DNA from: Oscillospiraceae bacterium
GTDB lineage: Bacteria; Bacillota; Clostridia; Oscillospirales; Acutalibacteraceae
Direction: 5' to 3'
Assembly (NCBI GenBank): GCA_902762875.1
Contig: CACWPS010000002.1
Span: 62,001-126,000, forward strand
Length of the DNA stretch: 64,000 bases
Each line of letters starts with the position of its first letter. Positions within the stretch are counted from its first letter, which is position 1. Under the pieces are notes generated by a model that had not been told where the DNA came from, ran no database searches, and saw only the letters and a list, made by a program, of their open reading frames with translations. The position numbers and the translations under genes were made by a program. Below are positions 33,468-53,616 of the stretch, one piece after another.

Positions 33468-33641
33468 GTGATTTTTAAGAAAAAAATTGCGGTGATTTTG
33501 GCGGTTGTTTTGTCCCTTGCGATACTTAGCACCGCAGTAGCAAAGGGATATGAATATATCGCCGTCGGCGGTACTGTGACCGAACAGCGGACAATAATCC
33601 TCGATGCAGGCCACGGCGGGTTAACTAATACTATAGATTAG
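33468..33641 (+). CDS. cwlD: cwlD 5' part, interrupted by the 19.4-kb element
   Basis: Start of N-acetylmuramoyl-L-alanine amidase CwlD, which with PdaA makes muramic-delta-lactam in the spore cortex. GTG at 33468 has GGAG seven bases upstream. A signal-anchor helix (about 6-25) leads to RTIILDAGHGG, with zinc ligand His49. At residue 51 the frame runs into the element and stops six codons later. All other catalytic residues are at 53046 onward. This fragment alone cannot be active. Joining at the 12-bp core restores a 237-residue protein, the length of B. subtilis CwlD. Confidence 0.9.
   Translation: MIFKKKIAVILAVVLSLAILSTAVAKGYEYIAVGGTVTEQRTIILDAGHGGLTNTID
33611..33622 (+). other. Left attachment core (attL)
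   Basis: CCACGGCGGGTT lies within the codons for His-Gly-Gly of DAGHGG in cwlD. To the left the sequence is cwlD. To the right (AACTAATAC onward) it is element DNA. Confidence 0.88.
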
Positions 33642-36923: not shown

Positions 36924-36952
36924 ATTGCCTCCTATAAATTTTACTTTAAAAT

Positions 36953-37149: not shown

Positions 37150-37220
37150 TAGTAAATTAAATGAAATACTCTTAGAACAAACACAAAACAAATGATTTTT
37201 TTATAAAGTGAATATTAAAT

Positions 37221-37261
37221 AAGCAACAAGCCGCACCCATTGAAGGTGCGGCTTGTTGCTT
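37221..37261. terminator. Strong terminator downstream of the XRE gene
   Basis: A perfect 17-bp stem, AAGCAACAAGCCGCACC (37221-37237) with its complement (37245-37261) and a 7-base loop. It begins at the stop codon of the leftward XRE gene. Confidence 0.8.
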
Positions 37262-37577
37262 ATTTTTGTTCTTTTGTCAAACGGCGAATATGCCCGATAA
37301 TCAGCATCATATCGTCATCGTTAAGTTTTCTGAGTTCATCAATCGCACTTTGAAGCAGTGCAGGGTTTTCAATAGAATCATCGAAGAATTGGCTGGGTGT
37401 AATTTCAAAATAATTACATATCTCAAGGAACTCTGCCATAGGCGGCAAGGACTTGCCAGAAGATATGTTATAGATATAACTTCTGCTATGACCGAGGTCA
37501 TAACTCATTTGGTATTCTGAAACACCCTTTTTGAGCCGCAATTCTGTAATTCTATTTCTAATAAAAGTTCCGTCCAT
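37260..37577 (-). CDS. XRE-family helix-turn-helix regulator
   Basis: It is 105 residues. HTH_3 domain at about 7-60 (RITELRLKKGVSEYQMSYDL, then SRSYIYNISSGKSLPP), followed by a short helical tail. The ATG at 37577 is ten bases after GAGG. A GTG three codons earlier is too close to it. It is divergent from the SLOG gene, with which it shares about 190 bases of upstream DNA, so it may control that promoter. Confidence 0.88.
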   Translation of the reverse strand: MDGTFIRNRITELRLKKGVSEYQMSYDLGHSRSYIYNISSGKSLPPMAEFLEICNYFEITPSQFFDDSIENPALLQSAIDELRKLNDDDMMLIIGHIRRLTKEQK

Positions 37578-37654
37578 ATTGTTCACACCTCTCTATGTTT
37601 ATATTTTAGTCTATTGGGAGGGCAAACTATTCCAAGAATATATGTTGAATTATC

Positions 37655-37683
37655 TTGTTTAATAGCGAATAATATGTTATAAT
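37655..37683 (+). promoter_or_regulatory. Promoter of the SLOG-family gene
   Basis: TTGTTT (37655-37660), 17 bases, TATAAT (37678-37683), in the space divergent from the XRE gene. Confidence 0.55.
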
Positions 37684-37771
37684 CGAATATAATATGTTTA
37701 CAAGTTCGTATTATTGCAAAAACATCAAAAATAATATTGTTAAAACATAAATACTTGGAGTTTGATATAAC

Positions 37772-38251
37772 GTGTTGGGGATTTTTACTGTCGCCTTTTT
37801 CGGTCACAGGTATATAGATAATCCGTTGAGGGTTGAAGAATTACTTGAAGAACAGATAAGGAAACTTATTGACGAAAAAGAGTATGTGGATTTTTTGGTG
37901 GGGCGTAACGGCGAGTTTGATCAGTGCGTTTCATCAACCGTGCTTCGTGTACGAAAAAATTATAGGGATGATAACAGTTCTCTTGTTTTGATGCTACCAT
38001 ACCCAACCGCCGAATATATTAATAACCAAAATTATTATGAAGATTATTATAGTGACATTGATATTTCATATGCAGCTTCAAAAGCGCACCCGAAAGCTGC
38101 TATACAAATTCGTAATCGAGAGATGGTAGATAGAGCTGATTTGGTTATTTGCTATATCGAGCATAACGAGGGCGGTGCTTATAAAACCATAAAATATGCT
38201 TCGGAACAGAATAAACCCATAATCAATCTTGCTGATTGTGTTGACTATTGA
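37772..38251 (+). CDS. SLOG-family (DUF1273-like) nucleotide-binding protein
   Basis: It is 159 residues. The start FTVAFFGHRYI, the glycine-containing loop FLVGRNGEFDQC, the block IQIRNREMVDRADLVICYIE and the end GGAYKTIKYA match the SLOG/YpsA-type Rossmann family, which binds nucleotides or ADP-ribose-like signals. Such proteins are frequent in phages, elements and defence islands. The start is GTG with GGAG 11 bases upstream. The ligand is unknown. Confidence 0.8.
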   Translation: MLGIFTVAFFGHRYIDNPLRVEELLEEQIRKLIDEKEYVDFLVGRNGEFDQCVSSTVLRVRKNYRDDNSSLVLMLPYPTAEYINNQNYYEDYYSDIDISYAASKAHPKAAIQIRNREMVDRADLVICYIEHNEGGAYKTIKYASEQNKPIINLADCVDY

Positions 38252-38264
38252 AAAGGAGAAGAAA

Positions 38265-38438
38265 ATGAAAGTTTTTAAATTTATTGTAGTAAGTATTCTA
38301 GTTTTAATTACGCTTCAAACCGCATATTTTGCTTTGTTATATAAAGCAAATACAGCAACCGGGACTTTTCTTATATGTTTAGGGATAACACTATTTGTCA
38401 CTTGTGATGGCGGACTAGAGAGAAAGAAATCACGGTAA
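38265..38438 (+). CDS. Small membrane protein
   Basis: It is 57 residues with two hydrophobic segments (about 3-22 and 29-46) and a basic tail. AAAGGAG lies seven bases before the ATG, 13 bases after the SLOG gene, so the two are co-transcribed. No family is recognised. Confidence 0.65.
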   Translation: MKVFKFIVVSILVLITLQTAYFALLYKANTATGTFLICLGITLFVTCDGGLERKKSR

Positions 38439-38451
38439 AAATGCTTTGGTT

Positions 38452-38560
38452 GACATAAACTTTCACAGTTTTCTGTTGTATGCACCTTTAAAGATACACC
38501 CTAAGTCAACTAGACAAATTTGTAAGCGTGAAATGGTAGTTGTAGCAATTATAATTTTAA
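38452..38560 (+). pseudogene. Remnant of a second SLOG-family gene
   Basis: In one frame this stretch reads IHPKSTRQICKREMVVVAI, which parallels AHPKAAIQIRNREMVDRADLV of the intact gene 400 bases upstream. It has no start, no ribosome binding site and no complete domain. It is best read as a decayed duplicate. Confidence 0.5.
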
Positions 38561-38581
38561 CCAAATTCCGTTAAAATTATG

Positions 38582-38610
38582 TTGATTTTATCGAAAATTG
38601 GTGTTATAAT
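38582..38610 (+). promoter_or_regulatory. Promoter of the repressor-ImmA-chaperone operon
   Basis: TTGATT (38582-38587), 17 bases, TATAAT (38605-38610), 33 bases before the HTH start codon. No other good promoter or terminator is seen before 48.1 kb, so it may drive the whole run of genes. Confidence 0.7.
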
Positions 38611-38643
38611 AGATTTGGTAAATATTAGAAGGAAGTGATACCT

Positions 38644-39075
38644 ATGGATAGTATTACTAATTTAATAAAATCTGAAATCAAGCGTCAGTATAAAAGTCTG
38701 CGCCAATTCTCAGAGCAAAGTGGTATTCCGTACAGCACCTTATCCAATGCTTTAACTAAGGGCATTGGCGGAACATCATATGATACTGTTGTTAAGATAT
38801 GCGACCTTTTAAATCTAAAGCAGATTTATGATACTGAGGTTTCATTGTTTAACGAGCAATTTCACGAAATAGGTACAATGCTTACCGCTCTTGACGAACA
38901 GGGTGTTCATACGGTTAAAACTATTTTAACGTTAGAATATAACCGTTGTATAGATAAGCAGTCCGAACCGGCTATAAAAGGATTTAACGGTATAGCGTAC
39001 GCAGCAAAAAAGATACACGACGAAAAGCGAAATGAAATTAAGCGCCTGGTTGATGAGGTAAAGAGTAATGAATAA
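38644..39075 (+). CDS. HTH-domain repressor paired with ImmA/IrrE protease
   Basis: It is 143 residues. An N-terminal helix-turn-helix is seen (SLRQFSEQSGIPYSTLSNAL, about 18-37) and the rest is helical. The ATG at 38644 is nine bases after AAGGAA. The following ImmA/IrrE gene overlaps its end by eight bases. In ICEBs1-type systems such a pair is a repressor and its anti-repressor protease, so this is the likely control switch for the genes downstream. Confidence 0.8.
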   Translation: MDSITNLIKSEIKRQYKSLRQFSEQSGIPYSTLSNALTKGIGGTSYDTVVKICDLLNLKQIYDTEVSLFNEQFHEIGTMLTALDEQGVHTVKTILTLEYNRCIDKQSEPAIKGFNGIAYAAKKIHDEKRNEIKRLVDEVKSNE

Positions 39076-39760
39076 TACTGTCATTCGTCAGAAGGCTTCG
39101 GATTTTTTAAAGAAATTTTCTGTTAGCCAATTGTCGCTGGATAGCCTGCTTAAAGTTTTTCAGAACCAAGGTTTTGATATCATTGAATATAGTTCTTCAA
39201 AAAATTCAGAATCGGTCAGTAAATTAATATCTGCATTAGATATTGAAAAATATCTGTCGGATGGCAAGGCCCTTGCATATAAATCGGATGATATAAAATT
39301 GATATTTATTTGTGAGGATTTAACTGCTGACGAAAAATTATATGCTCTTGCACATGAAGAAGGACATGTATTTTGTGGACACTTGCGCGACGGAAATGTT
39401 TTGTATAGTGTTGAGGAAGAACGTGAGGCAAACGAATTTGCTCATTACATTCTACATCCAACTGTATTTCAAAGAGCAAAGTCTTTTATAAAGGAAAATA
39501 AAAAGCTTTCAATCGCTACAATATGTCTTGCTTTAGTGATAATCGTAATGATACCGTGTTCGATACATATATTCACTTCAAAAGATAAACCGGTCTATTC
39601 CGAAACATATAACGGCAATTACTATATTACTCAAAGCGGAACCAAATATCATAGAGAAGATTGTACTTATATAAAAGGTAGAAAAACGCAAGTTTTGACT
39701 GAAAAGAAATTGAAATCAGGACATTATGAGCCTTGTAAGGTTTGTTTGCCCAACGAGTAA
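39068..39760 (+). CDS. ImmA/IrrE-type metalloprotease with membrane anchor
   Basis: It is 230 residues. The zinc protease motif HEEGH is at 96-100 with a downstream Glu in EEEREANEFA. Then come a transmembrane helix (about 148-168) and a small C-terminal domain with YHREDCTYIKG and CKVC, which resembles short Cys-rich extracellular or nuclease-associated modules. Most ImmA proteins are soluble, so the anchor is unusual. It may cleave the adjacent HTH repressor in response to a membrane signal. Confidence 0.82.
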   Translation: MNNTVIRQKASDFLKKFSVSQLSLDSLLKVFQNQGFDIIEYSSSKNSESVSKLISALDIEKYLSDGKALAYKSDDIKLIFICEDLTADEKLYALAHEEGHVFCGHLRDGNVLYSVEEEREANEFAHYILHPTVFQRAKSFIKENKKLSIATICLALVIIVMIPCSIHIFTSKDKPVYSETYNGNYYITQSGTKYHREDCTYIKGRKTQVLTEKKLKSGHYEPCKVCLPNE

Positions 39761-39772
39761 AGGAGATTTAAT

Positions 39773-41005
39773 ATGTATTTCTTAACTATAGTTTTAGCGG
39801 TTATATTTATAATTTGTGCATTAGCGGTAGAAGAAGCCGGACTGGCAGCTTTCTTAGTAATCTTATCTGTGATTATGATTGTTTTATCAGCTATTTTAAT
39901 CTACAGAGACTATAAAAAATCAAAAAATATTACATATAAGCCACAATTCTTTGATAATGATACTCCTACCACTGTTGATAAGAGTGGATACGGTTACAGT
40001 ATGGATAATCCGATATATACGAGCTCGGTTCATAATGCCTACTCATTTCTTGATAATTTAAGAACATCGGATGGCAAAAAGATTAAATATAAACGTTCAG
40101 GAGCATATTATGGCGTTGTTTGTAATGGCAAAAAAGAAACTGCTGTAGATAAATATGAAATAACTGTTTCTGGTAGAGTATATGCCACACTTTATATTTG
40201 TCCCTATGGTAAAGATTCTAATAAGGTTCCTAACGGATTTTCTCTTCAAACTAAACCACTTAATAAAAAACAGGCTATGGAAAAAGCTATAGCTAACTCT
40301 TCTAATGATGATATAAACAAATTATGTGATGGCTTAGAAACCGAACCACAAACAATGAAGATGGCTTTTCCTGGCGGTGAACGTCAAAAAGGCAGTGTTG
40401 TTCGTTCGCTTTGTAAAATATTTAATATTAATTCATCTGATGCACTTATGCAAAAGAAATTAGTGAGAATATATCTTGACGTTTTAGTAAGAAAAGTAAT
40501 AATAAAATGTTCGGATGAAGACATTTTATCAAGTCTTAAGATTAATCATAATGATTTAATTAAAACAAAAGAAACAGCAAATTCTGTTATGACATATATA
40601 TTTATGAATATGATGAATAACGATTTTGAGATTAAATCGGATGAAGATTTGGAAATGATAGGTATCGTTTCTACTGGATTTGCAGAAAACGAAGAAAGTC
40701 GCGAAGAGAATGAAGTTCACCAAACCGAAAATCTTGATGATGCTGACTATGGTCTTGTACCCGAGAAGCCTATATATACAAATGGTGTTGCAGGTTCAAA
40801 TTCCTATTTGGAGTGATTAACAACAACGCTTGGTGAAACACTTTCATGGGAAAGACAAGGTTCAATGAGTGTTGACGGTATAAACGGTATGATAGATATT
40901 TATGAAGGATACTTACCTTCAGGAAAGCGTTATAAAACCTTATATGTGAATATGTATGGTACTGCAAATTCTACAACTGCACCAAAAGGATTTAAAATGA
41001 AGTAA
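39773..41005 (+). CDS. Membrane protein with two related domains, split by an in-frame TGA
   Basis: Translation stops at 40814-40816 (347 residues), but the same frame stays open to 41005. Two hydrophobic helices (about 1-20 and 23-45) open the protein. A domain at 80-156 starts PIYTSSVHNAYSFLDNLRT. A second copy starts at 333 with PIYTNGVAGSNSYLE, is cut by TGA, and continues LTTTLGETLSWERQGSM to ...PKGF. The stop aligns with an inner residue of the first copy, so it is probably a recent nonsense change (for example from CGA or AGA). The truncated 347-residue form may still be made. Function is unknown. Confidence 0.7.
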
Positions 41006-41020
41006 AAATTGGAGGTAAAA

Positions 41021-42256
41021 ATGAGTATTCCTTATCGTTTCCCAAATGGCTCTTATGGAAGAATAATGATTGCTCCTGGTGGCTTTAGAGAAAGTATGGC
41101 GCATCTTTCGTTTAGGGAAGATTCCGATCCTGTTGAGGGAAAATATATAAAGGTAATCGAAGATTGTAATTGTCAATTATTAACTGTATCAGATAATTAT
41201 ATATGTTATTTTTCTAAGATAACAGATGTTAGTAAGTATCTATATGGTATTACGGCAGATGAACTTTGTACACCAAACGATCCAGAGTCTAGATATTCGT
41301 CTTATCCAGAAATGATTGAGTGGAACAATGATAAAGTATCCTCTCTGAATTGGGATATGTTCCTTCTTGCATTTTACTTATTCGTATTTTCGGATAGTGA
41401 TTTTTCTTCTTTTTATTGGCGGCAACTTCAACAAATTTTACGTATTATTGAGAATGATAACAATTTATTTAAACGAGTTACTTTTGGTAAAACAAAAAAC
41501 TTTAATGAAGATGTAAATATATTTTGGAACAAAATATACGAAGAACTTGGAAAAAAGGTTTTGCGTATGTGTTCAGCACAAACTTGTTGGCTTGCTTTCC
41601 AAGGTTTAAAAGAAATCCAAGAAACCTTTTCTATAGCAGAACATACACAATGCATTGAACTTGAAAAAATGTTTTGTATGTTAATGGATGGTATTGCTGT
41701 TGAAAAAATCCGCCGTGATGATAGAGATAAAATAAGGTATCTTACATTTGATTCGTTGGATATAAATAACATATTCTTTTATGACGAATATTTCGAACTT
41801 GAATCTGTTGATTCCAAGACAAAAGAAGAAGTGTTCAATATGGCTTTTGAGCGCTTTTTATGGGCAGCTGATTTATTAAGAGATAATAATCGAAACTATA
41901 TTTCTGCAGATAAATTATACGAGAAGGCTTTAGAGTACGCTAACGCTGAGCAAAGGTTATTGATAGATTCTAGACGAAAAGCAATTATACCATACATTAA
42001 AGAGCAAGAAGAAATCAAAAGAAAAGAAAAACAAAAAGAAACTAGAATTAAACTTACGGAAAATATAACATTTTCTATTATTTTAGTTACAATCCTTGCA
42101 TTGATTGTTTTTGTGATTTTATTAGTTGTTTCATTAATCTTTTCGTTAAAAGGATTGTTAAATGTTTCTTGGGTAGGTGCTGTTATATCTATAGCAATTG
42201 CTATTATTAGTTTTTTGGTTGGGAAAATATTTGATCCGGAATTAAAACTTTTTTAA
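41021..42256 (+). CDS. Uncharacterised protein with C-terminal membrane hairpin
   Basis: It is 411 residues. No named domain is recognised. The N-terminal 60 residues look beta-rich, the middle is helical (AADLLRDNNRNYISADKLYEKALEYA resembles a TPR-like pair), and two transmembrane helices lie near the end (about 352-380 and 384-404). GGAGG lies five bases before the ATG. It is followed within 25 bases by the GrpE-like gene, so it is part of the chaperone operon and could anchor the machinery to the membrane. Confidence 0.7.
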   Translation: MSIPYRFPNGSYGRIMIAPGGFRESMAHLSFREDSDPVEGKYIKVIEDCNCQLLTVSDNYICYFSKITDVSKYLYGITADELCTPNDPESRYSSYPEMIEWNNDKVSSLNWDMFLLAFYLFVFSDSDFSSFYWRQLQQILRIIENDNNLFKRVTFGKTKNFNEDVNIFWNKIYEELGKKVLRMCSAQTCWLAFQGLKEIQETFSIAEHTQCIELEKMFCMLMDGIAVEKIRRDDRDKIRYLTFDSLDINNIFFYDEYFELESVDSKTKEEVFNMAFERFLWAADLLRDNNRNYISADKLYEKALEYANAEQRLLIDSRRKAIIPYIKEQEEIKRKEKQKETRIKLTENITFSIILVTILALIVFVILLVVSLIFSLKGLLNVSWVGAVISIAIAIISFLVGKIFDPELKLF

Positions 42257-42278
42257 CAATGTATGTGTGAGGGTTTAT

Positions 42279-42632
42279 ATGAAAGATATAGAAGTTTTAC
42301 AAAATTCAATTGCTAATATTTCTTCGGAATTATGTAGATTTAAAAATGTGTTTGAAAAAGCTATAAGTAAACTTGATTTTGAAGAACAAAGCAAGTATAT
42401 GAGCCAATTTGCTTGGTTTTCAAAAAAGGTTACAAAAGCTGTCGAAGAGGCAGGTCTTAGAATTGTAAGTCTTGAAGGACAGGCGTATGACCCAGGCATG
42501 GCGGTTACGCCGCTAAACATTGATGATTTTGAGGTTGAGGATGAGCTTAAAATCGTTCAAATGATAGAACCTATTATTATGCAAGAAGATACTGTATTAA
42601 AAACAGGCACTGTTTTACTTGGGAGGATTTGA
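42279..42632 (+). CDS. GrpE-like nucleotide exchange factor
   Basis: It is 117 residues, shorter than housekeeping GrpE (about 180-200). A helical N-terminus is followed by a region like the GrpE beta head: VEDELKIVQMIEPIIMQED and VLKTGTVLLGR. The ATG at 42279 has GAGGG upstream. It ends three bases before the Hsp70 start, so it is probably the dedicated exchange factor of that Hsp70. Confidence 0.72.
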   Translation: MKDIEVLQNSIANISSELCRFKNVFEKAISKLDFEEQSKYMSQFAWFSKKVTKAVEEAGLRIVSLEGQAYDPGMAVTPLNIDDFEVEDELKIVQMIEPIIMQEDTVLKTGTVLLGRI

Positions 42633-42634
42633 AA

Positions 42635-45118
42635 ATGAAATATTACATAGGAATTGACTTAGGCACAACAAACAGTGCTATTTGCTCGTACGACGGTGAA
42701 AATATCCGTGTTTGGAAAAGTCCTGAACAAAACGATGTAACACCATCTGCTATTTATGCGGATAAGCGTGGCAACCGCTATTACGGTAATAAAGCATACA
42801 ATCAGGCACCGTATAACCCTGATAATTCAGCAACCTTATTTAAGCGTTATATGGGTACGACAATGAAGCTTGAACTAAAAGCTTCGGGGATTTCGCTTAC
42901 CCCCGAAGAATGCAGTGCAGAAATATTGAAGGTTTTATACGGATACTTACCTGAAGAAATACGCAATAGCGATGACACAGCAACCGTTATTACAGTTCCC
43001 GCTGCATTTAATCAAATGAAGAAAGATGCAACCTTGCAAGCTGCGAAGCTTGCAGGGCTTGGTAATGTTGCTTTAATGCAGGAACCCGTTGCTGCTATTA
43101 TGAGCATTATGCGCCTTTCTAAAAAAGAAGGCATCTTCTTGGTTTATGATTTGGGTGGCGGTACATTTGACGTTACTATAGCAGAAAATATTGGCGGTAA
43201 AGTAAATCTACTTGCAACAGGCGGCGTTGAATCCTGCGGTGGTAGAGATATTGACCGAATGATTTTTATGCAAATTGTAGTTCCGTGGTTAAAGCAAAAT
43301 TTTGCTCTACCTGATGATTTTCTTGGCAACAGCAAATATAAAACCTTTATCCGTGTAGCACAATGGGCAACCGAGCGTGCAAAAATCGAGTTATCTGCAA
43401 TGGGCACAAGCACTATTGCTCTTAGCGAAGGCGAAGCCAGAACAACGGATGAAGAAGATAATGAACTTTATTTGGATATTGACCTTACTCGTGAACAAGT
43501 GGATAATATTATTGCGGACTTAATTGCAGAAACCGTAGCCGCAACGCGTGAAACCTTAGCTAAGGCAGGACTTTCTGCTAATGATTTGGAGCGTATTGTT
43601 TTTGTTGGTGGTCCTACCAACTATAAGCCTTTAAGGGATAAGGTTGCATTTGAACTTTCTTTGCCAGCAGATATTGATGTTAATCCTATGACCGCTGTTG
43701 CTGAGGGCGCAAGTATTTTTGCCGAGTCTATCGACTGGTCAACATCTAACCACAACCGTAAAGCAACTAACGAAACTGCGAATACACAGTTGGATCTTTC
43801 GTTTAAATACACAGCGAGAACACCTAATGATTCTGCAAAGATTATGTGTGTGCTTGGCAAAGAACTTAACGGATATACTATTCTTTTCACAAGTCTTGAT
43901 ACAGGTTGGACTTCGGGTAATGCACCGTTAAAGGATAAGGCTATGCTTGATTTACCCTTATCTAAAAACGGTGAAAACCGCTTTTCTGTAAAAGTATTTG
44001 ATGAATTTGGTAAAGAAATTAGCGCAGTATCCGAGCCAATTATAATAACTAAAACTTTAGCTACTATTGGTGCTATTCCTGCTTCACATTCTATCGCCAT
44101 CGAGGTTATTGATAAACTAGGTGGAACACCAACCCTTGAATTCCTTGTAAAAGAAGGAGATGCTCTACCTAAAAAGGGCGGTATTAACTTTAAGGCTGGT
44201 CAGACAATTAAAGCCGGTTCAAACGATTCTCTTAACATCAAGCTTTGGGAAGGCGAAATTAAATCACCCATAGATGATAATAGATTTATTGGAGTTTTGA
44301 AAATAGCTGGAACTGATATTGATAGCGGTGTAATACCTACCGGTGCAGATATTGAGTGTGAATATGAAATGTCAGATTCAGGCACAATTAATCTTGAAGT
44401 ATCTATTCCTTGTATAGGTGCATCGTTTGGAAATCATAATTTCTATTCCCGTCAAGAAGGACAAACTGACCTTGAAAACATCGATGCTTTAGCTGAACAA
44501 GGTCGCAAATTATTAGAACGTATTGAAGATATGTCCGATAAGGTTTCAGATCCAAATTTAGAAAATGCTCGCAAAAAGGCAGAACTTGCTGCAAATATTG
44601 ACAGTATGGAAAACTGTGAGCCTGAGGATGTTCAAAAGGCGAATAACGAGCTTCTCGATGCTAAAAAATTGATGCATCAGTCCCGTCAGGATAATTTACA
44701 GATTATCAGACAGATGGAGCTTGATAATTGTGTAGAATTCTTTAATGAGGTTGTTCGCCAGTATGCTACATCTAGTGAACAGCAAATGTATGATAATTTA
44801 GTTCGTACTGCTCAACATGCTATTGACCGCAATGAAAATAGTTTTGATAATCATCTTAGCAATTTGAGAACTAAAAATACTATGATTTTATTGCGTCAAG
44901 ATTGGTTTATTGTTGACTGGTATAATCGTGCAACCTCCGCAACTGCGAATTATATTGATATTGCTCGTTTCAACGAACTAAAAAGACGCGGTGATATCGC
45001 TCTTGCAAACGATAACATTGACGAGCTTCGCCAGATTCTGTTTGAGCTTCTTTCAATTCAAATTCATGCAGATTCCGGTGACGGTATGTATGATGTAGCA
45101 AATATAATAAAGGGGTAA
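42635..45118 (+). CDS. Hsp70 (DnaK-like) chaperone with extended C-terminus
   Basis: It is 827 residues, well above the 600-640 of DnaK. The ATPase domain (about 1-375) is complete: GIDLGTTNSA, VPAAFNQMKKDAT, LVYDLGGGTFDVT and IVFVGGPTNYKPLRD. After it come an extra beta-rich insert of about 100 residues, a substrate-binding-like beta domain (near 480-590), and then some 230 residues of helix instead of the short DnaK lid. The housekeeping EEVD/acidic tail is absent. This layout suggests a specialised Hsp70 working with the GrpE-like, AAA+ and J-like neighbours. Confidence 0.9.
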   Translation: MKYYIGIDLGTTNSAICSYDGENIRVWKSPEQNDVTPSAIYADKRGNRYYGNKAYNQAPYNPDNSATLFKRYMGTTMKLELKASGISLTPEECSAEILKVLYGYLPEEIRNSDDTATVITVPAAFNQMKKDATLQAAKLAGLGNVALMQEPVAAIMSIMRLSKKEGIFLVYDLGGGTFDVTIAENIGGKVNLLATGGVESCGGRDIDRMIFMQIVVPWLKQNFALPDDFLGNSKYKTFIRVAQWATERAKIELSAMGTSTIALSEGEARTTDEEDNELYLDIDLTREQVDNIIADLIAETVAATRETLAKAGLSANDLERIVFVGGPTNYKPLRDKVAFELSLPADIDVNPMTAVAEGASIFAESIDWSTSNHNRKATNETANTQLDLSFKYTARTPNDSAKIMCVLGKELNGYTILFTSLDTGWTSGNAPLKDKAMLDLPLSKNGENRFSVKVFDEFGKEISAVSEPIIITKTLATIGAIPASHSIAIEVIDKLGGTPTLEFLVKEGDALPKKGGINFKAGQTIKAGSNDSLNIKLWEGEIKSPIDDNRFIGVLKIAGTDIDSGVIPTGADIECEYEMSDSGTINLEVSIPCIGASFGNHNFYSRQEGQTDLENIDALAEQGRKLLERIEDMSDKVSDPNLENARKKAELAANIDSMENCEPEDVQKANNELLDAKKLMHQSRQDNLQIIRQMELDNCVEFFNEVVRQYATSSEQQMYDNLVRTAQHAIDRNENSFDNHLSNLRTKNTMILLRQDWFIVDWYNRATSATANYIDIARFNELKRRGDIALANDNIDELRQILFELLSIQIHADSGDGMYDVANIIKG

Positions 45119-45122
45119 ATTT

Positions 45123-46520
45123 ATGGAACAGTGGTTACCGAGAGGCTATAATATTGCCGATGACAATAGAATAAAAAGAGTATTTTCACAGGATGATAGT
45201 TGGCAAATTTATCTTACTAACAGGGATAATTATGTCCTTGCGGTGACCGCTGATTTATACCGACTTTGGATAGAGGAATATAGTTTACCCGAGAAAATTT
45301 TTTCAAAGTTAGATTTAGGATATTTCATATTCTGCGGTACTAATACATATTTGGTATCATCCTTAAAAAGTGGACCGTATCCCGAAAATGGCGGACAGGT
45401 TGAGGCTTTTTCTCTTGCTTTTAACACCGCAGCAAGATTATATCCTAATGCTGATTTGCAAAATGCGGTTTATATTGAGGAATATTCTTTACTGTTACCA
45501 ACAGAGTTTAATCTGCCCGAAAGCAATAACGCTATTGCATACGGTAAATGGCTTACGGGTGGTATAAATATTCCCGTAACATCAATTAAAAGAATCAGCC
45601 AAATTGCGTCTTGGCTGAATAAAGACTTTCTTTATAATTCCGTTAAACTTGCAGGATTTGATGTTGAACCTATAGAGTATGATGATAATTCAGCTCTTGT
45701 GACAGAAACAAAAACTGAAACTGTCGCTCCAATGGCACCACCAACTGATTCTGTATGTAACGGTCAGTTCTCGTTAATAGGAAGGCCTGATCTTGAGCAG
45801 TTCTTCAACGACAATATTATTGATATTGTTACAAACCGTGAAGCATATGCTCGTATGGGCATAAACTTCCCGGGAGCTACTATTCTTTACGGACCTCCCG
45901 GTTGCGGTAAGACATATGCAATTGACAGATTGGCAGAATTTTTAGGGTGGCAGAGATTTGATATCGATTCAAGTAATATTGCCAGCTCGTATATCCACGA
46001 TACCCCTAAAAAGATATCCGAAGTGTTTAATTCTGCAATAAAAGCTGCACCATCTATTTTGGTTATAGATGAGATGGAAGCCTTTTTGATGGATAGAAAT
46101 TCTTCGGGACCTGGTACACATCACATAGAGGAGGTTGCCGAGTTCTTGCGCAGAATACCTGAAGCTATTTCAAAAGGTGTATTGATTTTTGCTATGACAA
46201 ACATGCTTGATTCTATTGACCCTGCTATTCTTAGACGTGGTCGTTTTGACCATATTATTGAGGTCAAGATGGCAAGCAAGGAAGAGTTAACGGCACTCTT
46301 CTCAGCAAAACTTAGCGAATTGCCTACAGAAGATGATGTTATTGCTGAAGACTTGGCGGTAAAACTTGATAAGCATCCGTTGTCCGACGTAGCCTTTGTG
46401 CTTAGAGAAGCAGGAAGACTTGCCGTTAAAAAGAAGTTAGATAAGATTAGCAAGGAATGTTTTGATGAAGCGGTTAACGCTTTGCCAAAAGAAACGGAAG
46501 ACAAGCATATAGGGTTTTAA
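45123..46520 (+). CDS. AAA+ ATPase (CDC48/FtsH/spastin-like module)
   Basis: It is 465 residues. The first 230 have no recognised domain. The AAA+ core has Walker A GPPGCGKT (257-264), Walker B LVIDEME (313-319), the sensor-1 region IFAMTNMLDSIDPAILRRGR with arginine finger, and a lid helix domain. It starts four bases after the Hsp70 stop. The nearest AAA+ types unfold or remodel proteins, so it may feed or receive substrates from the Hsp70. Confidence 0.87.
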   Translation: MEQWLPRGYNIADDNRIKRVFSQDDSWQIYLTNRDNYVLAVTADLYRLWIEEYSLPEKIFSKLDLGYFIFCGTNTYLVSSLKSGPYPENGGQVEAFSLAFNTAARLYPNADLQNAVYIEEYSLLLPTEFNLPESNNAIAYGKWLTGGINIPVTSIKRISQIASWLNKDFLYNSVKLAGFDVEPIEYDDNSALVTETKTETVAPMAPPTDSVCNGQFSLIGRPDLEQFFNDNIIDIVTNREAYARMGINFPGATILYGPPGCGKTYAIDRLAEFLGWQRFDIDSSNIASSYIHDTPKKISEVFNSAIKAAPSILVIDEMEAFLMDRNSSGPGTHHIEEVAEFLRRIPEAISKGVLIFAMTNMLDSIDPAILRRGRFDHIIEVKMASKEELTALFSAKLSELPTEDDVIAEDLAVKLDKHPLSDVAFVLREAGRLAVKKKLDKISKECFDEAVNALPKETEDKHIGF

Positions 46521-46538
46521 TTTTGGAGTGTGAAAATA

Positions 46539-48131
46539 ATGCGGCTTATAGATAATCCTTTTTATATTTTGGATGTATCTACAACTGATAATCGCCAAAC
46601 TATTATTTCTAAGGCGGAAGAAAAGAGCTTTTTTGAGGATTCTTCTGTTTGCAGTGAGGCACAAAATATTTTATTAAATATCATTAAGCGAACATCTGCA
46701 GAACTTTCGTGGTTTCCGGGTGCGGATAGCTCTAAAATTCGGGAAATTTCTAATGCAATAAAGAATAATCAGTCGATTAATCTTTCGGGTCTTGGTTCTA
46801 TTGCAAGGTTGAATGCTTGTGTTTACAATTTTTCAATAGGAACACAGGTAGATGTTTATGAAACCGGATATTCTGTTTTAGAAATTGATGAATTATTTGA
46901 GAGCTTAGATGCAGTTGAAGTTACCGATATTATAAATAATGACCGTCAAAAAGCTGGAATTAAAGAAATATCAGAAAACGAAGTTTTAGCAGAACTTCAG
47001 AAGATTCGTGAATACATAAGCCATGTTATTACAGAAAAGGTTCAGAGTTTTCCTAATAAACAACGTATTGATTTTCATACATTAATTGCGGAAAAATGCA
47101 TTGCTGATAGTTCTTATAACGATGGTGTTATAATTGAAGATATTATCAACCAATATGAGATTTTTGTTCAATCAATGCTTGAATTAAAGGAAACTGGAAT
47201 AAGAAAACTGATTAGTGACGTTAGATTGTTAATAAGCGGAGAACGGAGCATTTCAAATATTGGTCAAAACATATCTTATGATGAATGTTTACAGAAAGAA
47301 ATAAGAATTAATGTTGATGCTATTCTTCACACATTAAAAGACTGGGATGTTTATGCTCAACCTATACAGTTGCGTGATACCGCCAGAGGATACATTAATA
47401 CTAATAGTCAAAAACTGGCAAACGAAATAAGAGACTTAGGAATACTTATTTATAATGAAAAAGGGTATACAGAAATATCATTGAAAATTTCAAAAATACT
47501 CAAATCAGTATTTGCAGAATTACCTGAGTTTGTTGACAAGGTTAGTAATGATGAACGTATTCTTAATGAGAATAAGGCTAAGGAAGCGTTAGATAAATTA
47601 AGAGAACAAAATAGACAAGTTGCGGTTGCTCAGCAACAGAAAAGAAATTTTGGCTCAAATTTAATTGGTTGCTTATCACCGTTTGCGGGATTTGCTATTT
47701 TTATAGTGATAATTTTGATTATAGCAGGACTTTCTGAATGTTCTTCGGATTCTAACGATAGTAGCTCAAAATCGACCAAACCATCTTCCTCGTATTCGGG
47801 TGGTACAAATAATTACTACGATTATGACGACTATGACTACACCCCATCACAAAATTATGATTCGGGCAATTCAGTAAAGGCAAATCAACTCAAATCCGAA
47901 TTAGAAGATTTAAAAGATGAAATTGAGGATATGGAGTGGGATTTAGATCAACTTAAAGACGATATAGATTATTATGAGCGTCAATATTACAACACTGGTT
48001 ATGATTTTTATATTAATTATTACGATGATGCAGTTGATGATTATAATGATTTATACGATGAATACGAAGCCGCGATTGATGAGTATAATGATAAAGTGAA
48101 TGAGTATAATCGGTTAATAGGTGCTTATTAA
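46539..48131 (+). CDS. J-domain-like membrane protein with coiled-coil tail
   Basis: It is 530 residues. The N-terminus (DNPFYILDVSTTDNRQTI ... ELSWFPG, about 5-62) has the pattern of J-like domains with NPF and a conserved ElxWFPG, though the canonical HPD is not visible. A long helical region follows, then one transmembrane helix (near 388-405), a Ser/Tyr/Asp-rich linker and an acidic coiled coil to the end. It is the likely co-chaperone that ties the Hsp70 to the membrane. GGAG ten bases before the ATG supports the inner start. Confidence 0.68.
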   Translation: MRLIDNPFYILDVSTTDNRQTIISKAEEKSFFEDSSVCSEAQNILLNIIKRTSAELSWFPGADSSKIREISNAIKNNQSINLSGLGSIARLNACVYNFSIGTQVDVYETGYSVLEIDELFESLDAVEVTDIINNDRQKAGIKEISENEVLAELQKIREYISHVITEKVQSFPNKQRIDFHTLIAEKCIADSSYNDGVIIEDIINQYEIFVQSMLELKETGIRKLISDVRLLISGERSISNIGQNISYDECLQKEIRINVDAILHTLKDWDVYAQPIQLRDTARGYINTNSQKLANEIRDLGILIYNEKGYTEISLKISKILKSVFAELPEFVDKVSNDERILNENKAKEALDKLREQNRQVAVAQQQKRNFGSNLIGCLSPFAGFAIFIVIILIIAGLSECSSDSNDSSSKSTKPSSSYSGGTNNYYDYDDYDYTPSQNYDSGNSVKANQLKSELEDLKDEIEDMEWDLDQLKDDIDYYERQYYNTGYDFYINYYDDAVDDYNDLYDEYEAAIDEYNDKVNEYNRLIGAY

Positions 48132-48146
48132 TCTTTTCTTGAAACT
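48128..48146 (+). promoter_or_regulatory. Shared promoter-like motif, copy 1
   Basis: TTAATCTTTTCTTGAAACT: one mismatch to copies 2 and 3. TTGAAA could be a -35, with TAATAA 18 bases on. It overlaps the stop codon of the J-like gene and precedes the small HTH gene. Confidence 0.5.
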
Positions 48147-48169
48147 AAATAATAACCTTATGTAATAAA

Positions 48170-48213
48170 AATATGACCTTTAAAGTTTTATGGCTTTAGA
48201 GGTCATATTTTTT
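48170..48213. terminator. Terminator after the chaperone operon
   Basis: AATATGACCTTTAAAG pairs with CTTTAGAGGTCATATT (16 bp, one wobble) around an 8-base loop, and TTTT follows. Confidence 0.8.
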
Positions 48214-48233
48214 ATGAAAAGAGGATAAAATCA

Positions 48234-48467
48234 ATGAAAAAGTACATTGATACAGCAGTTTGGGAAAATGATTACAGAGAAAGGCTTAAGAAACTTATGG
48301 AGCAAAAGAATATTACTGCTCGAGAATTAAGTTTAACGCTCGGGTATAACGAGGGGTATATCAGCCGAATTCTCAAAAGAAAAATTGACCCGTCATTTAA
48401 ATCTATGATGGATATTATGTTGTATTTTGACATAAGTCCAGCTGAATTCTTTACGCTTGATTTATAA
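48234..48467 (+). CDS. Small XRE-family HTH protein
   Basis: It is 77 residues, almost only a helix-turn-helix (LKKLMEQKNITARELSLTLG, then NEGYISRILKRKIDPSFK). GAGG lies nine bases before the ATG. It follows copy 1 of the repeated promoter-like motif and precedes copy 2, so it may regulate them. An excisionase-type role is also possible. Confidence 0.8.
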   Translation: MKKYIDTAVWENDYRERLKKLMEQKNITARELSLTLGYNEGYISRILKRKIDPSFKSMMDIMLYFDISPAEFFTLDL

Positions 48468-48481
48468 AGTCATACTAAATA

Positions 48482-48500
48482 TTAATGTTTTCTTGAAACT
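48482..48500 (+). promoter_or_regulatory. Shared promoter-like motif, copy 2
   Basis: TTAATGTTTTCTTGAAACT. With TTGAAA as -35, TAGAAT lies 17-18 bases on. It would drive the structured non-coding region that follows. Confidence 0.55.
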
Positions 48501-48544
48501 TGAAAAACTCTTTCTTAGAATTTAAGTGTCATCTTAAAATCTTG

Positions 48545-49003
48545 AGAAGGAGTTTTTAAATTTATTTAGGTGTACGAAGGAATGTTACACCATTAGCACG
48601 GGAAGTAAGGGTATCTTCGACAAAGGTTTGTCGAGAGATGATGAAGTGTACCTGAAAAGGTCCGACTTGCACAGCTGCCGAAATGTTGCAGGTTGAGTAG
48701 CAGATTTAAGTTTTAAGTTGTTAACGAAAATCTGCGGCAGCACACCTGAGCGATGACAGGTAGGTTCATCGTTGCTACCGTGAAAGACACGGCTGAAAAA
48801 TATTTGCTTGGATATATTTTCAGTATTTTAATCAAGCGCCGAAGTTATGGGATTTAATCGGTAATGAAAATCCTTGCCGTACCACTATTCAGCGGTGGAC
48901 CGATCCATTGTATCGGTATATGGTATTGCGTTCTCTTAAGTTAGAGGCTTAGGCACACCTAAGTATACGCTGGGCTTGTCCCATTATGCTGACCTTCAGC
49001 CAA
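48545..49003 (+). ncRNA. Putative large structured RNA
   Basis: About 460 bases without a credible ORF but dense in complementary arms. GCTGCCG (48674-48680) pairs with CGGCAGC (48735-48741) and encloses GCAGATTT/AAATCTGC. Others are CCGTG/CACGG (48778-48792), a ten-pair stem at 48793-48823, GGATTT/AAATCC (48850-48873), ACCGAT/ATCGGT (48899-48917) and CTTAGG/CCTAAG (48948-48963). Around 48744-48779 ACCTG/CAGGT, GCGATGA/TCATCGT and GGTAG/CTACC overlap, which implies a pseudoknot or switching. A promoter-like motif lies just upstream. It may belong with large mobile-element RNAs such as GOLLD or ROOL, but I cannot match it to a named family. Confidence 0.55.
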
Positions 49004-49013
49004 AATTAAATAT

Positions 49014-49625
49014 GATTTACGTTTCGAGATAATGATGATTATAATTTCGAGAGTCATTTCGAAATCTGTTCTCTTTTCGAGAGGTATGATTATCTTTTCG
49101 ATATGATAGATGACAGAGATGATGCTCATTTTGAAATGATGATGACTTTCATTTTGAGAGGCGCCGGTTTCTATCTTTCCTAGCAAGGAAGATAGAAACG
49201 CGACCGAGGGCCTGCCCGAGGGAGCGGCGCCAAGGCATAGTACGCATAGTTAGAAAAAGAAAATTGGAGAAACGTATGGTTTTTATATAAAAAAGTCCCT
49301 GGGCGTACTATGCCTTGCTATCATTTTTAGATGATAGATGACAATATTTCGAGATGATATTTTGATATGATTTATGATACACATTTTGAAATGATAGATT
49401 AACTATCTTTTCGAAATTCGTTTTGAAATTAACTGTCGGTGCTTAGTATGAAAATATGATTTACTTTTTGATATGCTCCTAACAGATTCTTATAAGAGTA
49501 AGCAAGGATATAAAATATTAATGAGACCAATCTTTAACAAATCTGCAAAAGAATCTATCCTGTCTTTTTGAAATGATATATGACTGTCATTTCGAAATGA
49601 GTGTATGATCATCATTTTCAAATGA
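49014..49625. repeat. Array of degenerate TTTYGAAATGA-type repeats
   Basis: At least a dozen loosely spaced variants of CATTTYGAAATGATATATGA are spread over 600 bases and interrupted by the large hairpin at 49.16-49.32 kb. Many contain TTTCGAAA-like or TTTTGAAA palindromic cores. Spacing is irregular. They could be binding sites for a replication, mobilisation or recombination protein. Confidence 0.6.
49160..49316. repeat. Large compound inverted-repeat structure
   Basis: GGCGCCG (49160-49166) pairs with CGGCGCC (49225-49231) around a 13-bp hairpin (GTTTCTATCT.../49187-49199). Directly next to it AAGGCATAGTACGC (49232-49245) pairs perfectly with 49303-49316 across 57 bases. GC content here is far above the surroundings. 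No coding frame. It could be a small non-autonomous insertion or a cis-acting site such as an origin of transfer. Confidence 0.6.
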
Positions 49626-49656
49626 GTACAGGAAATATGATTATCATTTATAGAGC

Positions 49657-51028: not shown

Positions 51029-51029
51029 A

Positions 51030-51188: not shown

Positions 51189-51398
51189 ATGAAGAAAAAT
51201 AAAACCGAATATATTGTAGTTAATACGTTCTCCGAAATTAGTGAGGCAGAACGCAAGGAAAAAATAAATAATGCAATTAGAACTCTTTGCGTTATGGATA
51301 TTGAAAAATTATACGAATTGGATTATAATAATAGTGTTGCATTTCACGGCAGCACTCAGGACCTAAGTGGGAAGGAGTGCTTTGAAAATGCTAACTGA
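51189..51398 (+). CDS. Small protein upstream of the serine recombinase
   Basis: It is 69 residues, charged, starting MKKNKTEYIVVNTFSEISEA. No family is recognised. GGAGG lies before the ATG, and the serine recombinase start codon lies inside its 3' end (11-base overlap). Tight coupling to the recombinase suggests a partner, perhaps the recombination directionality factor needed for excision, but nothing in the sequence proves this. Confidence 0.65.
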   Translation: MKKNKTEYIVVNTFSEISEAERKEKINNAIRTLCVMDIEKLYELDYNNSVAFHGSTQDLSGKECFENAN

Positions 51399-52974
51399 AA
51401 TTGCGGATATTTATGTTCGCCTTTCTTCAGAAGATAGGGATAAGAAAAACAAGACTGACGAGAGCGAAAGTATCCAAAATCAAAAGACGATGCTTATAAA
51501 CTACTGTATCGAGAAAGGATGGCAAATCAACGGCATTTACTGTGATGAGGATTACAGTGGTGCCGACGCTTCAAGACCTGCTTGGAATCAGGTGCTAAAA
51601 GACTGCGAAGAAGGCAGATGCACGATAGTTGTCTGCAAAACACAATCCCGTTTTTCACGTGATATGGAAATGATTGAACACTTCATTCACGGAAAGTTTC
51701 CTGAATGGGGCGTGCGATTTGTTGCGGTTGTTGATAACATTGACACAAACGTTAAAGGCAATAAAAAAACACGGCAAATCAACGGGCTTGTAAATGAATG
51801 GCAGTTGGAAGAGTTATCCGACAACGTTAAAGCCACTTTAAGTGTTAAACGTAAAAACGGCGAATTTGTCGGCTCTTTTGCACCTTACGGCTATTTAATT
51901 GACCCCGATAACAAGAATCATTTAATTATTGATGAAGTTGCAGCGCCTACAGTTCAACGGATATTTGATTTATATATCGGTGGACTTGGGTACATAAGCA
52001 TTGCGAAAATATTAAATGATGAGATGATTCCACCACCTTGTGTTCACAAAAAGGAGCTTGGCACTAAGTATTATAACGGTAATTATGAGAAGAACAATGC
52101 GCCACGGACAACCTGGTCCGATTCGGCTGTTTATGCAATTCTTCGCCGCTTTGAATACACAGGTACTCTGGTCCAGGGAAGACAAGAAGTTGTAAACTAC
52201 AAAACGGGCAAACGCCGTAAAAAGTCGCAAAGTGAGTGGGATATTGTAGAGGATACCCACGAGCCGATTATTTCTAAAGAAACCTTTTATAAGGCACAGG
52301 AGATTAGGTTATCACGTGGCAGAGGTCAAAAAATCCCAAGCGGTAGTTGTTATTCGCTTGCTAAAAAGGTGTTTTGTGCCGAGTGCGGTAACACGATGTG
52401 GAAGATGAGCTATAAGTTGCGTGACGGAAGATATAACTATCTTTCTTGCAGAACTCGAAAAACCACTAACGGAGTTTGCCAAAACGCACACAGTATTCGC
52501 CTTGACGAGTTGGAACAAATCGTAGTAGATGAAATCAATAAGTTACTTGATAAATATTACGATGAAAAGCAGATCGGCAAGTTGGATGCACCCAAAAGGA
52601 AAAAGAACGGTGCTAAAACCTTGCAGTCGCAAATTGCAGAGCTTGAAGAAAAGGTGAAGCGGAACGATAACCGAATGGCTCAGATGTACACCGATAAATT
52701 AGATGGTATCATCAGCGTAGCGGAGTTTACAAAATATCGAGAAAGCTATCAAAAGGAATCTGCAGAAACAGAAAAACGCATCGAAATTTTGAAATCAAAG
52801 CTTGCTACACTTATGGGCGGCGAAACAAAAATGGATACTACTCAGGTACTTGAAAAGTACAGAAAAATTGACACTCTTACTTTCGAGATTGCCGATGAAT
52901 TTATAAGCAAAATCTTCATCGGAAAGCTCAAAAAGGATGGCAAGAGAGAAATCAAGATTGAGTGGAAAATTTAG
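51388..52974 (+). CDS. Large serine recombinase (integrase)
   Basis: It is 528 residues. The resolvase domain has the catalytic pattern YVRLS with nucleophile Ser13 and QSRFSRDMEMIE further on. Then follow the recombinase domain (SFAPYGYLIDP ... PRTTWSDSAVYAILRR), a zinc ribbon (CAECG ... CRTRKTTNGVCQN) and a coiled coil (about 410-470). AAGGAG upstream supports the ATG at 51388 over a start seven codons earlier. It ends 70 bases from the right attachment core and is the best candidate for inserting the element into cwlD. Confidence 0.95.
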   Translation: MLTEIADIYVRLSSEDRDKKNKTDESESIQNQKTMLINYCIEKGWQINGIYCDEDYSGADASRPAWNQVLKDCEEGRCTIVVCKTQSRFSRDMEMIEHFIHGKFPEWGVRFVAVVDNIDTNVKGNKKTRQINGLVNEWQLEELSDNVKATLSVKRKNGEFVGSFAPYGYLIDPDNKNHLIIDEVAAPTVQRIFDLYIGGLGYISIAKILNDEMIPPPCVHKKELGTKYYNGNYEKNNAPRTTWSDSAVYAILRRFEYTGTLVQGRQEVVNYKTGKRRKKSQSEWDIVEDTHEPIISKETFYKAQEIRLSRGRGQKIPSGSCYSLAKKVFCAECGNTMWKMSYKLRDGRYNYLSCRTRKTTNGVCQNAHSIRLDELEQIVVDEINKLLDKYYDEKQIGKLDAPKRKKNGAKTLQSQIAELEEKVKRNDNRMAQMYTDKLDGIISVAEFTKYRESYQKESAETEKRIEILKSKLATLMGGETKMDTTQVLEKYRKIDTLTFEIADEFISKIFIGKLKKDGKREIKIEWKI

Positions 52975-53031: not shown

Positions 53032-53616
53032 TTGGCTAACTCAGCCCACGGCGGGTTTGACGGCGGAGCGGTGGCGCCCGACGGTACTGTTGAAAAGGAC
53101 ATAAATTTAAAGATTGCCCTTACCCTAAAGGATTTTCTAAAGCAAAGCGGCTTTAGAGTTATAATGACGAGGGAGAGCGATGTTTCAACCGACGATGTTG
53201 AAACTGATAAGATTGCAACCCGCAAAAAAAGTGACCTTAAAAACCGCTTGGAGCTTATGAGAGATAATCCGAATGCAGTTTTTGTGAGCATCCACCTTAA
53301 CAAATTCACAACCTCGGCGGCGAACGGCTCCCAGGTGTTTTACAGCGCAAAACAAGAGGACTCCAAGGTGCTTGGCGACTGCATACAAAAATCTATCGTT
53401 AAACTTTTACAGCCCGAAAATACAAGGGTCAACAAGCAGGCCACCAGCAGTACCTATCTTCTCTACAACGCCACCGTCCCCGCTGTGCTGGTGGAATGCG
53501 GGTTTTTAAGCAACACCGCCGAGCTTAAAAGGCTTAAGGACGAGGAATACCAGAAGAAAATGGCATTTTCGATTTTTTGCGGAATAATAAGCTTTTATTC
53601 CGATAGCAGTATATAA
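53032..53616 (+). CDS. cwlD: cwlD 3' part (amidase catalytic domain), interrupted
   Basis: True cwlD sequence begins at the core (53046). It continues GFDGGAV, EKDINL (zinc-ligand Glu), SIHLN (zinc-ligand His) and VECGFLSN (catalytic Glu), the complete Amidase_3 set except His49 of the 5' part. The TTG at 53032 gives an open frame, but no ribosome binding site or signal sequence precedes it, so this half is probably silent while the element is present. Fusion at CCACGGCGGGTT is in frame with the 5' part. Confidence 0.9.
   Translation: MANSAHGGFDGGAVAPDGTVEKDINLKIALTLKDFLKQSGFRVIMTRESDVSTDDVETDKIATRKKSDLKNRLELMRDNPNAVFVSIHLNKFTTSAANGSQVFYSAKQEDSKVLGDCIQKSIVKLLQPENTRVNKQATSSTYLLYNATVPAVLVECGFLSNTAELKRLKDEEYQKKMAFSIFCGIISFYSDSSI
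53046..53057 (+). other. Right attachment core (attR)
   Basis: CCACGGCGGGTT, identical to 33611-33622. Bases further out differ on both sides (GG before it at the left end, GC at the right end), as expected for attL/attR of a serine integrase. Confidence 0.88.

Follow-up and report, generated by a model that had tools for sequence, protein, structure and literature searches.

A mobile operon joining a private Hsp70 set to an AAA+ ATPase and variable membrane proteins, a candidate immune system

We analyzed a 64,000-nucleotide (nt) stretch of DNA, hereafter the window, from an Oscillospiraceae bacterium (contig CACWPS010000002.1 of assembly GCA_902762875.1, contig positions 62,001-126,000), in which an integrative element carries an operon encoding its own Hsp70, a GrpE-like factor, an AAA+ ATPase, and a J-like protein. 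We refer to this gene set as the cassette, and all coordinates are window positions (Table 1). The operon runs from a helix-turn-helix (HTH) regulator through a membrane ImmA protease and two membrane proteins to the GrpE-like, Hsp70, AAA+, and J-like genes, with intergenic gaps of 2, 4, 9, 12, and 22 bases, one overlap, and ribosome-binding sites that are plausible in sequence. An original prediction, made from the letters alone, had described such a closely spaced chaperone operon, and its open reading frames (ORFs) are indeed found here; the tight spacing is interrupted only at the 347-amino-acid (aa) membrane/repeat ORF, which is cut by an in-frame stop after which the same frame, by eye, runs on for 189 bases to 41005. 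Because a near-identical relative, locus L018, carries an intact 412-aa copy, the window gene is taken to be truncated. The C-terminal end of the intact protein repeats a domain near its start (by eye), and by alignment the window protein has a domain in common with an approximately 214-aa protein found downstream of the J-like gene in other loci. Nothing in the HTH, membrane, J-like, or GrpE-like proteins exceeded the Pfam curated cut-offs, and we dropped the candidate assignment of the 411-aa protein as a SLATT effector, for which SLATT_1 gave only E 0.077.

Table 1 Features of the integrative element and its chaperone operon.
Feature	Positions	Strand	Evidence
Left copy of 12-bp direct repeat (attachment-site, att, core), within amidase gene	33611..33622		12-mer occurs only twice in 64 kb
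XRE-type HTH regulator, operon head	38644..39075 (ATG 38644)	+	Pfam HTH_26 8e-4 and HTH_3 1.1e-3, both under curated cut-offs; 99% aa identity in L018
ImmA/IrrE-like M78 peptidase with transmembrane (TM) helix and Cys-containing C-terminal tail	39068..39760	+	Peptidase_M78 E 3.9e-8; HEEGH motif read; TM 148-166
Membrane/repeat protein, 347-aa ORF, truncated by in-frame stop	39773..40816	+	Cluster CL1, 19 loci; intact 412-aa copy in L018
Two-TM membrane protein, 411 aa, variable component	41021..42256 (ATG 41021)	+	27% aa identity to L018 counterpart; TM prediction
Putative GrpE-like nucleotide exchange factor, 117 aa	42279..42632 (ATG 42279)	+	hhalign to true GrpE, probability (Prob) 87, E 4e-6; reversed control Prob 0.3
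Dedicated Hsp70, 827 aa: nucleotide-binding domain (NBD), inserted region, region like the substrate-binding domain beta part (SBD-beta), C-terminal tail	42635..45118 (ATG 42635)	+	Pfam HSP70 E 1.9e-57
Classical AAA+ ATPase with its own N-terminal domain	45123..46520	+	Pfam AAA E 3.5e-27
J-like protein: HPD-less J-like N-terminus, conserved middle, TM, coiled-coil-like tail	46530..48131	+	hhalign to DnaJ, Prob 11 vs 0.15 reversed; TM 381-399
Large serine recombinase of the element	51367..52974	+	Resolvase and Recombinase, Pfam E about 1e-24
Right copy of 12-bp direct repeat	53046..53057		Other occurrence of the same 12-mer

Domain assignments throughout rest on sequence profiles, and the hhalign tests are pairwise profile comparisons with reversed controls, not database searches. 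In an alignment of 43 of the 57 full-length Hsp70 sequences, 10 of 11 checked NBD positions were identical in all 43, and the eleventh in 42. Next to the NBD lies an insert of about 105 residues; the stretch behind it weakly resembles the SBD-beta of DnaK (Prob 10 vs 0.5 reversed), a match that would not stand alone, and the C-terminal tail did not match the DnaK lid (0.65 vs 0.87 reversed). The AAA+ protein has a single classical AAA domain (PF00004), with no Clp/Hsp100 family match in Pfam-type domain lists. All 35 aligned proteins share the same residues at the Walker A, Walker B, sensor 1, and Arg-finger positions. Equally invariant are I, H, and T in a Y/F-I-H-x-T segment lying between the two Walker motifs, which by analogy may mark the pore-loop position. 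Searches of PDB profiles returned no useful match, and none at all for the GrpE-like protein.

The two co-chaperone names used in the original prediction hold in part. The GrpE-like family matches the GrpE profile over 51 columns that cover only the C-terminal half, as if it were a halved GrpE, and 13 of 46 members matched Pfam GrpE at E<=0.1 (best 0.0043). Toward DnaJ, the J-like N-terminus gives a weak alignment that is in register, again at a level that would not stand alone, but the HPD stretch is gapped out of that alignment; among 42 J-like members, none matched Pfam DnaJ at E 0.01 and none contained FNIII. One J-like member matches Pfam CpXC (3.6e-31) and is perhaps the protein of locus L019 (9153-11828 there), which has an N-terminal extension with Cys pairs and is directly followed by cas3.

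Host genomes retain housekeeping chaperones of their own. A separate GrpE scored over the curated cut-off in 38 of 39 host genomes searched, DnaJ was found in 15/15, and a DnaK-type Hsp70 besides that of the cassette in 14/14; in the genome of the window, dnaK and dnaJ lie on another contig. Taken together, the conserved operon, the invariant catalytic residues, and the retained housekeeping set indicate, at the level of sequence, that these chaperones form a private set and are no replacement for DnaK, in agreement with the earlier proposal of an Hsp70 set unlike housekeeping dnaK operons.

The cassette is carried by a 19.4-kb element (33611-53057) bounded by the direct repeats, with the serine recombinase adjoining its right end. 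The element splits an amidase gene at codons for HGG, leaving the 5' part before the left end (33468-33641, frame by eye) and the remainder (53046-53616; Amidase_3, Pfam E 6.4e-46) from the right end. The amidase was matched in 37 of 41 genomes of the family, that of the window included, with best matches in open frames of approximately 240-290 aa. Guanine-plus-cytosine content is 34.8% within the element and 45.8% outside, and the repeats, the split gene, and this difference confirm that the cassette sits on an integrative element, as first proposed. The split amidase gene is cwlD-like. Elements lodged within the sporulation genes of spore-forming bacteria can be removed by excision in the mother cell, and by analogy this element might be excised likewise.

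To determine how widely the cassette occurs, we scanned genomes with two GrpE-like peptides, a search that yields a lower bound, and recovered 64 loci in an 84,980-genome collection and 4 in viral contigs (IMG/VR). We also searched 72,556 plasmid records and phage records by tblastn with the J-like protein; six plasmid records matched, and neither the J-like nor the GrpE-like protein matched any of 50,697 phage records. On these results we dropped the idea that the cassette is ordinary phage cargo; one of the four viral contig loci (L082) adjoins phage tail genes. Two weak J-like matches from the same order (L007 and L008, the same as L016 and L017) were rejected for lack of the core genes, and L020, being a duplicate of L015, was left out. 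The window and plasmid loci that supplied the core profiles are themselves among the 74 loci counted, and the GrpE-like gene is present by construction because loci were found through it. Hsp70 was detected in 69 of the 71 loci that extend 1 kb or more downstream (missing in L023 and L081, the former scored negative because the profile covers only the C-terminal part and its contig ends early), AAA+ in 54 of 60 with 3.8 kb downstream (missing in L013, L028, L071, L076, L080, and L081), and the J-like gene in 46 of 48 with 8 kb downstream (missing in L028 and L080). All four core genes, in the order GrpE-like/Hsp70/AAA+/J-like, were found in 44 of these 48. Co-occurrence of Hsp70, AAA+, and the 411-residue membrane protein in other genomes, which the original prediction proposed to check, is thus borne out for the core, while the membrane protein proved to be a variable slot outside it.

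Host labels span Bacillota, Pseudomonadota, Thermodesulfobacteriota, Planctomycetota, Chloroflexota, Synergistota, Nitrospirota, Verrucomicrobiota, and Bacteroidota; many are metagenome-assembled genomes (MAGs), and two such contigs (L026, labelled Alistipes, and L028, labelled Oxalobacter) may be misbinned. Over the whole length, Hsp70 identity to the window protein is 49-57% in most non-clostridial rows and 41% in L080. In the Hsp70 tree the window groups with three other Bacillota rows (100/100), and Pseudomonas paracarnis and Acidovorax soli are sisters (100/96). Hsp70 genes from different families can be nearly identical: nucleotide identity is 96.6-97.5% among Lysobacter, Methylotetracoccus, and a Pseudomonadota bin, 93.6% between Sinimarinibacterium and Acidovorax, which belong to different classes, and 99.0% between Aeromonas and Shewanella. 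The contexts are mobile: plasmids, Tn7-like elements (Tn7 transposition genes lie near the cassette in Aeromonas and Shewanella), the serine-recombinase element, and positions beside phage genes. Plasmid records from Aeromonas, Shewanella, Polaromonas, and Vibrio annotate a small protein, an Hsp70, an ATP-binding/AAA protein, and a hypothetical protein (the J-like), with a peptidoglycan-binding protein beside the cassette in three of the annotated plasmid regions; the Hsp70 frame is broken on the Aeromonas plasmid, and Aminobacter has the J-like, GrpE-like, and Hsp70 genes with no AAA+ match. Within an E. coli collection, a DNA match was found in one of 5,426 genomes (HeN100), where the set comprises five genes.

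We next consider the membrane side of the cassette, which differs between host groups. In clostridial loci, membrane proteins lie upstream of the core and the J-like protein has a predicted TM helix in 4/4 cases (window, L015, L018, and L019), compared with a weaker TM in 2 of the other 48 J-like rows. Outside Clostridia, a single-pass protein lies between AAA+ and J-like, after J-like, or both. These accessory proteins form a cluster of 62 members in 47 loci. A TM is predicted in 57 of them, most often within residues 60-130, and 55 of the 62 carry, before the one membrane helix, a sequence that loosely matches the cytoplasmic motif GF[AS]GLSS[LM]VSD. The strict form of this tag was found in 55 non-core ORFs, spread over 41 loci, and in none of the 256 control ORFs, and one accessory protein that was examined contains PG_binding_1 (1.5e-15). 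At the level of sequence, the machine is tied to the envelope, in Clostridia through the TM of the J-like protein and the upstream membrane proteins, and elsewhere through the tagged single-pass proteins. The HTH/ImmA pair, which had been proposed to head the run, does so in the window and was otherwise seen by gene clustering only in three further clostridial loci; in Clostridia the HTH repressor and membrane ImmA protease probably control expression.

The membrane components also change faster than the rest. The window and L018 are identical in nucleotides at 95% over 38547-40996, 92% over 42335-47155, and 87% over 47310-48132, and seven of the operon proteins are 83-99% identical in amino acids, whereas the two-TM gene between these blocks has no nucleotide match and its product is only 27% identical. 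Since the two loci do not match outside this region, the shared unit extends from HTH to J-like in different surroundings. Directly downstream of the L018 cassette lies a metallophosphatase-STAND NTPase protein (15843-18869 there) with a weak PDC-S60 match. Among nine proteobacterial pairs, which share members, the membrane protein between AAA+ and J-like was the least conserved of five genes in eight, and the J-like in the ninth; the extracytoplasmic part of this membrane protein was its less conserved portion in 6 of 8 pairs and the more conserved one in two. A constant engine with a fast-changing envelope part would be expected of an arms-race receptor or effector.

We compared the cassette with described systems. 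Neither PADLOC nor Pfam contains a family covering the whole gene set, and the set is not described in the openly available article text searched, although a listing in an earlier table is possible; within these libraries and texts, the original statement that no described system was recognized stands. Run on the cassette's eight proteins, PADLOC matched AAA+ to IetA (3.1e-23) and ImmA weakly (about 1e-4), with nothing else strong. The AAA+ is thus distantly related to the ATPase of IetAS, whose partner is a subtilisin-like (S8) protease; the cassette, by contrast, has no S8 protease partner, its only protease being ImmA, and its gene set is different. With the DnaK-DnaJ-GrpE and ClpB bichaperone it shares an Hsp70, a putative exchange factor, a J-like adaptor, and an AAA+ motor, but its J-like protein lacks HPD, its GrpE-like protein appears halved, it has envelope partners and a mobile location, and its AAA+, with one classical AAA domain and no Clp-family match, is not of the ClpB/Hsp100 type, which has two rings and an M domain. 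Zorya, an envelope-anchored anti-phage machine, adjoins the cassette in Polaromonas and has no homologous component; in PADLOC the only match was an insignificant one of ZorA to the Hsp70 tail (E 0.046).

Two published conflict systems are related in theme. The GTPase-centred GAP1-N2 systems include an HSP70/GrpE theme (Kaur et al. 2020, PMC7159879), with HSP70 and GrpE genes and a DnaJ-domain fusion in one neighbourhood, a predicted role in conflict, and, in the wider class, TM and peptidoglycan-binding domains. They centre on GAP1, GTPases, and FNIII-J fusions, whereas the cassette core has a classical AAA+ instead, a comparison made by gene composition; no GTPase was found in the cassette with Pfam, nor is one annotated between the core genes in six records. 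CoCoNuT type III systems likewise encode an Hsp70-like protein, CnuD, in a predicted defence operon (PMC11090510). CoCoNuT Hsp70s accompany McrB/McrC homologues, with degenerate Walker A-like motifs, whereas the checked NBD residues of the cassette Hsp70 are invariant, and there is no McrBC or HEPN among the cassette proteins, the AAA+ giving only a sub-threshold McrB-type AAA match (E 0.098). By word search, the main text of DefensePredictor (PMC13092281) does not mention Hsp70, DnaK, or DnaJ, and PMC8195603 names HSP70 solely as a fusion domain in animals and in a reference. Host DnaJ is reported to take part in phage sensing by bNACHT25 (PMC12169576), a precedent for chaperones in bacterial immunity. 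Because the cassette lacks a defining trait of each described family considered, we regard it as new as a gene system; chaperone-centred conflict systems already exist as an idea, and the claim of newness is made with that caution.

We lean, at somewhat better than even confidence, toward the cassette being a mobile immune system, most likely anti-phage, built on a dedicated chaperone engine: probably an envelope-tethered Hsp70-AAA+ machine in which the engine is constant and the membrane sensors or effectors vary. In such a mechanism the GrpE-like protein, Hsp70, AAA+, and J-like adaptor would form one ATP-driven machine, perhaps a single complex. The tagged single-pass proteins, with a conserved cytoplasmic tag and a variable extracytoplasmic region that is in part peptidoglycan-binding, would supply the membrane component, which may sense or mark infection at the envelope while its cytoplasmic tag would be held by Hsp70 and the J-like protein. 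Once triggered, the AAA+ ring would pull on or unfold the bound protein or an incoming phage protein, and so either free a membrane effector or destroy the phage protein. Whether this amounts to a new class of immunity, with a private Hsp70-AAA+ motor core in place of a nuclease or STAND receptor, tagged variable receptors held by it, and infection triggering AAA+ remodelling at the membrane, is a more tentative proposal that we hold at less than even confidence.

A role in phage defence is suggested by the neighbouring genes. In Polaromonas the cassette has ZorA (Zorya) on one side and BREX-2 on the other, and in E. coli HeN100 it lies near RADAR RdrB and a DptF remnant; within the stretches retrieved, the Vibrio and Aminobacter records showed no named defence system. 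We scanned 124 of 307 flank ORFs (three above 1600 aa left out) and 117 of 256 ORFs from control segments, which were placed by hand at round, not random, positions on long contigs of the host genomes. At E<=1e-15, PADLOC models matched flank proteins as Dsr2 (L018), Cas3e (L019), SngC (L065), a C3a139/DrmD-like helicase (L072), SoFic (L062 and L058), MTase_II (L031), a mad2-like protein (L043), a GajB-like helicase (L022), and Orf5/HEC-06 (L048). Control matches were RtcR-type regulators (three families with 3 members each), mad3 (2), and BrxL (1). In our reading the kinds of hit differ, with system-specific proteins in the flanks and regulator and protease-like paralogues in the controls.

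Several observations weigh against an immune role. The excess by protein is weak: at least 10 of the 124 flank ORFs match, a lower bound because the scan counts families and the confirmed proteins were hand-picked and checked singly, compared with between 3 and 6 of 117 in the controls, a difference that is not significant. The larger contrast in matched families (108 flank vs 5 control) overstates the excess because one helicase or Cas3 matches many models. The enrichment in defence islands, for which the original prediction proposed a test, is suggestive but not significant by protein count. Several flank matches are generic helicases; 7 of 20 hand-picked neighbours inspected singly had no match at the limits used (L025, L037:1400, L056, L030, L060, L037:6215, and L028); Tn7 and plasmid cargo also includes stress and metal genes, with cad-type genes near the Shewanella locus; the core contains no nuclease, NADase, or other known effector; and the strict tag motif is missing in the window as well as in 11 further loci that carry AAA+ and J-like.

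The disaggregase or translocation role raised in the original prediction is possible. In its disaggregase form, the cassette would be transmissible protein quality control, a second Hsp70-AAA+ disaggregase giving tolerance to heat, oxidative, or envelope stress, an idea comparable to the mobile ClpG/ClpK islands. The complete ATP-driven composition of Hsp70 with AAA+, the mobile cargo positions, and the weak defence excess by protein are all in keeping with this, yet the AAA+ has one classical domain and no Clp/Hsp100 match, the named neighbours are defence and not stress genes, and a disaggregase has no need of a hypervariable membrane partner; we consider it unlikely while giving it real weight. 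The TM and peptidoglycan-binding partners in the operon, and a conserved tag that could serve as a targeting signal, would also suit an assembly or secretion chaperone for an element-encoded envelope structure, in effect a translocation or assembly machine tethered to the membrane. Among the conserved accessory genes inspected, none was recognized as a secretion channel, pilin, or surface client, and the E. coli set has only five genes, so we think this improbable.

Host DnaK/DnaJ/GrpE help lambda and P1, and the cassette might similarly help the mobile elements themselves, in replication, transposition, or counter-defence, as its Tn7-like, plasmid, serine-recombinase, and phage-type contexts would allow. 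The replication and integration enzymes of these elements are unrelated, however, so that no shared client is apparent, and the envelope partners fit such a role poorly; we rate this a shade less probable still. If the immune reading is correct, the cassette would be a bacterial immune machine with a protein-remodelling engine as its core. Such machinery is usually exploited by viruses, and host immune receptors elsewhere depend on it. The cassette is compact (five genes in HeN100), occurs in genera that are easy to work with, and offers direct handles on its trigger and its client in the variable membrane part and the conserved tag. Should the immune reading prove wrong, the cassette is still a conserved mobile Hsp70-AAA+ operon that lacks a described function, and an 'Hsp70 family protein' beside an 'ATP-binding protein' on plasmids or Tn7-like elements should not be read as stray housekeeping.

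The element carries further genes outside the cassette. A Peptidase_C14 (caspase-domain) protein (35345-36106, minus strand; Pfam 9e-16) is encoded by a gene overlapping another (36069-36923, minus strand) whose product appears membrane-bound by eye, and the pair is possibly a second defence module. A HipA_C-domain protein lies at 34127-35161 (Pfam 1e-7), which PADLOC PDC-M03A matches, and a YpsA-SLOG-like protein, just under the Pfam cut-off, at 37772-38251. Between the cassette and the recombinase, the sequence TTTTCTTGAAA is repeated after some stop codons (48134, 48488, 49806, 49929, and 51036), with one copy directly after that of the J-like gene; an Rfam search of the element returned no match. 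The non-coding stretch 49000-49660 contains many short imperfect repeats of the type ATGAT...CATTTTGAAATGAT, which are perhaps recombinase or transfer-origin sites.

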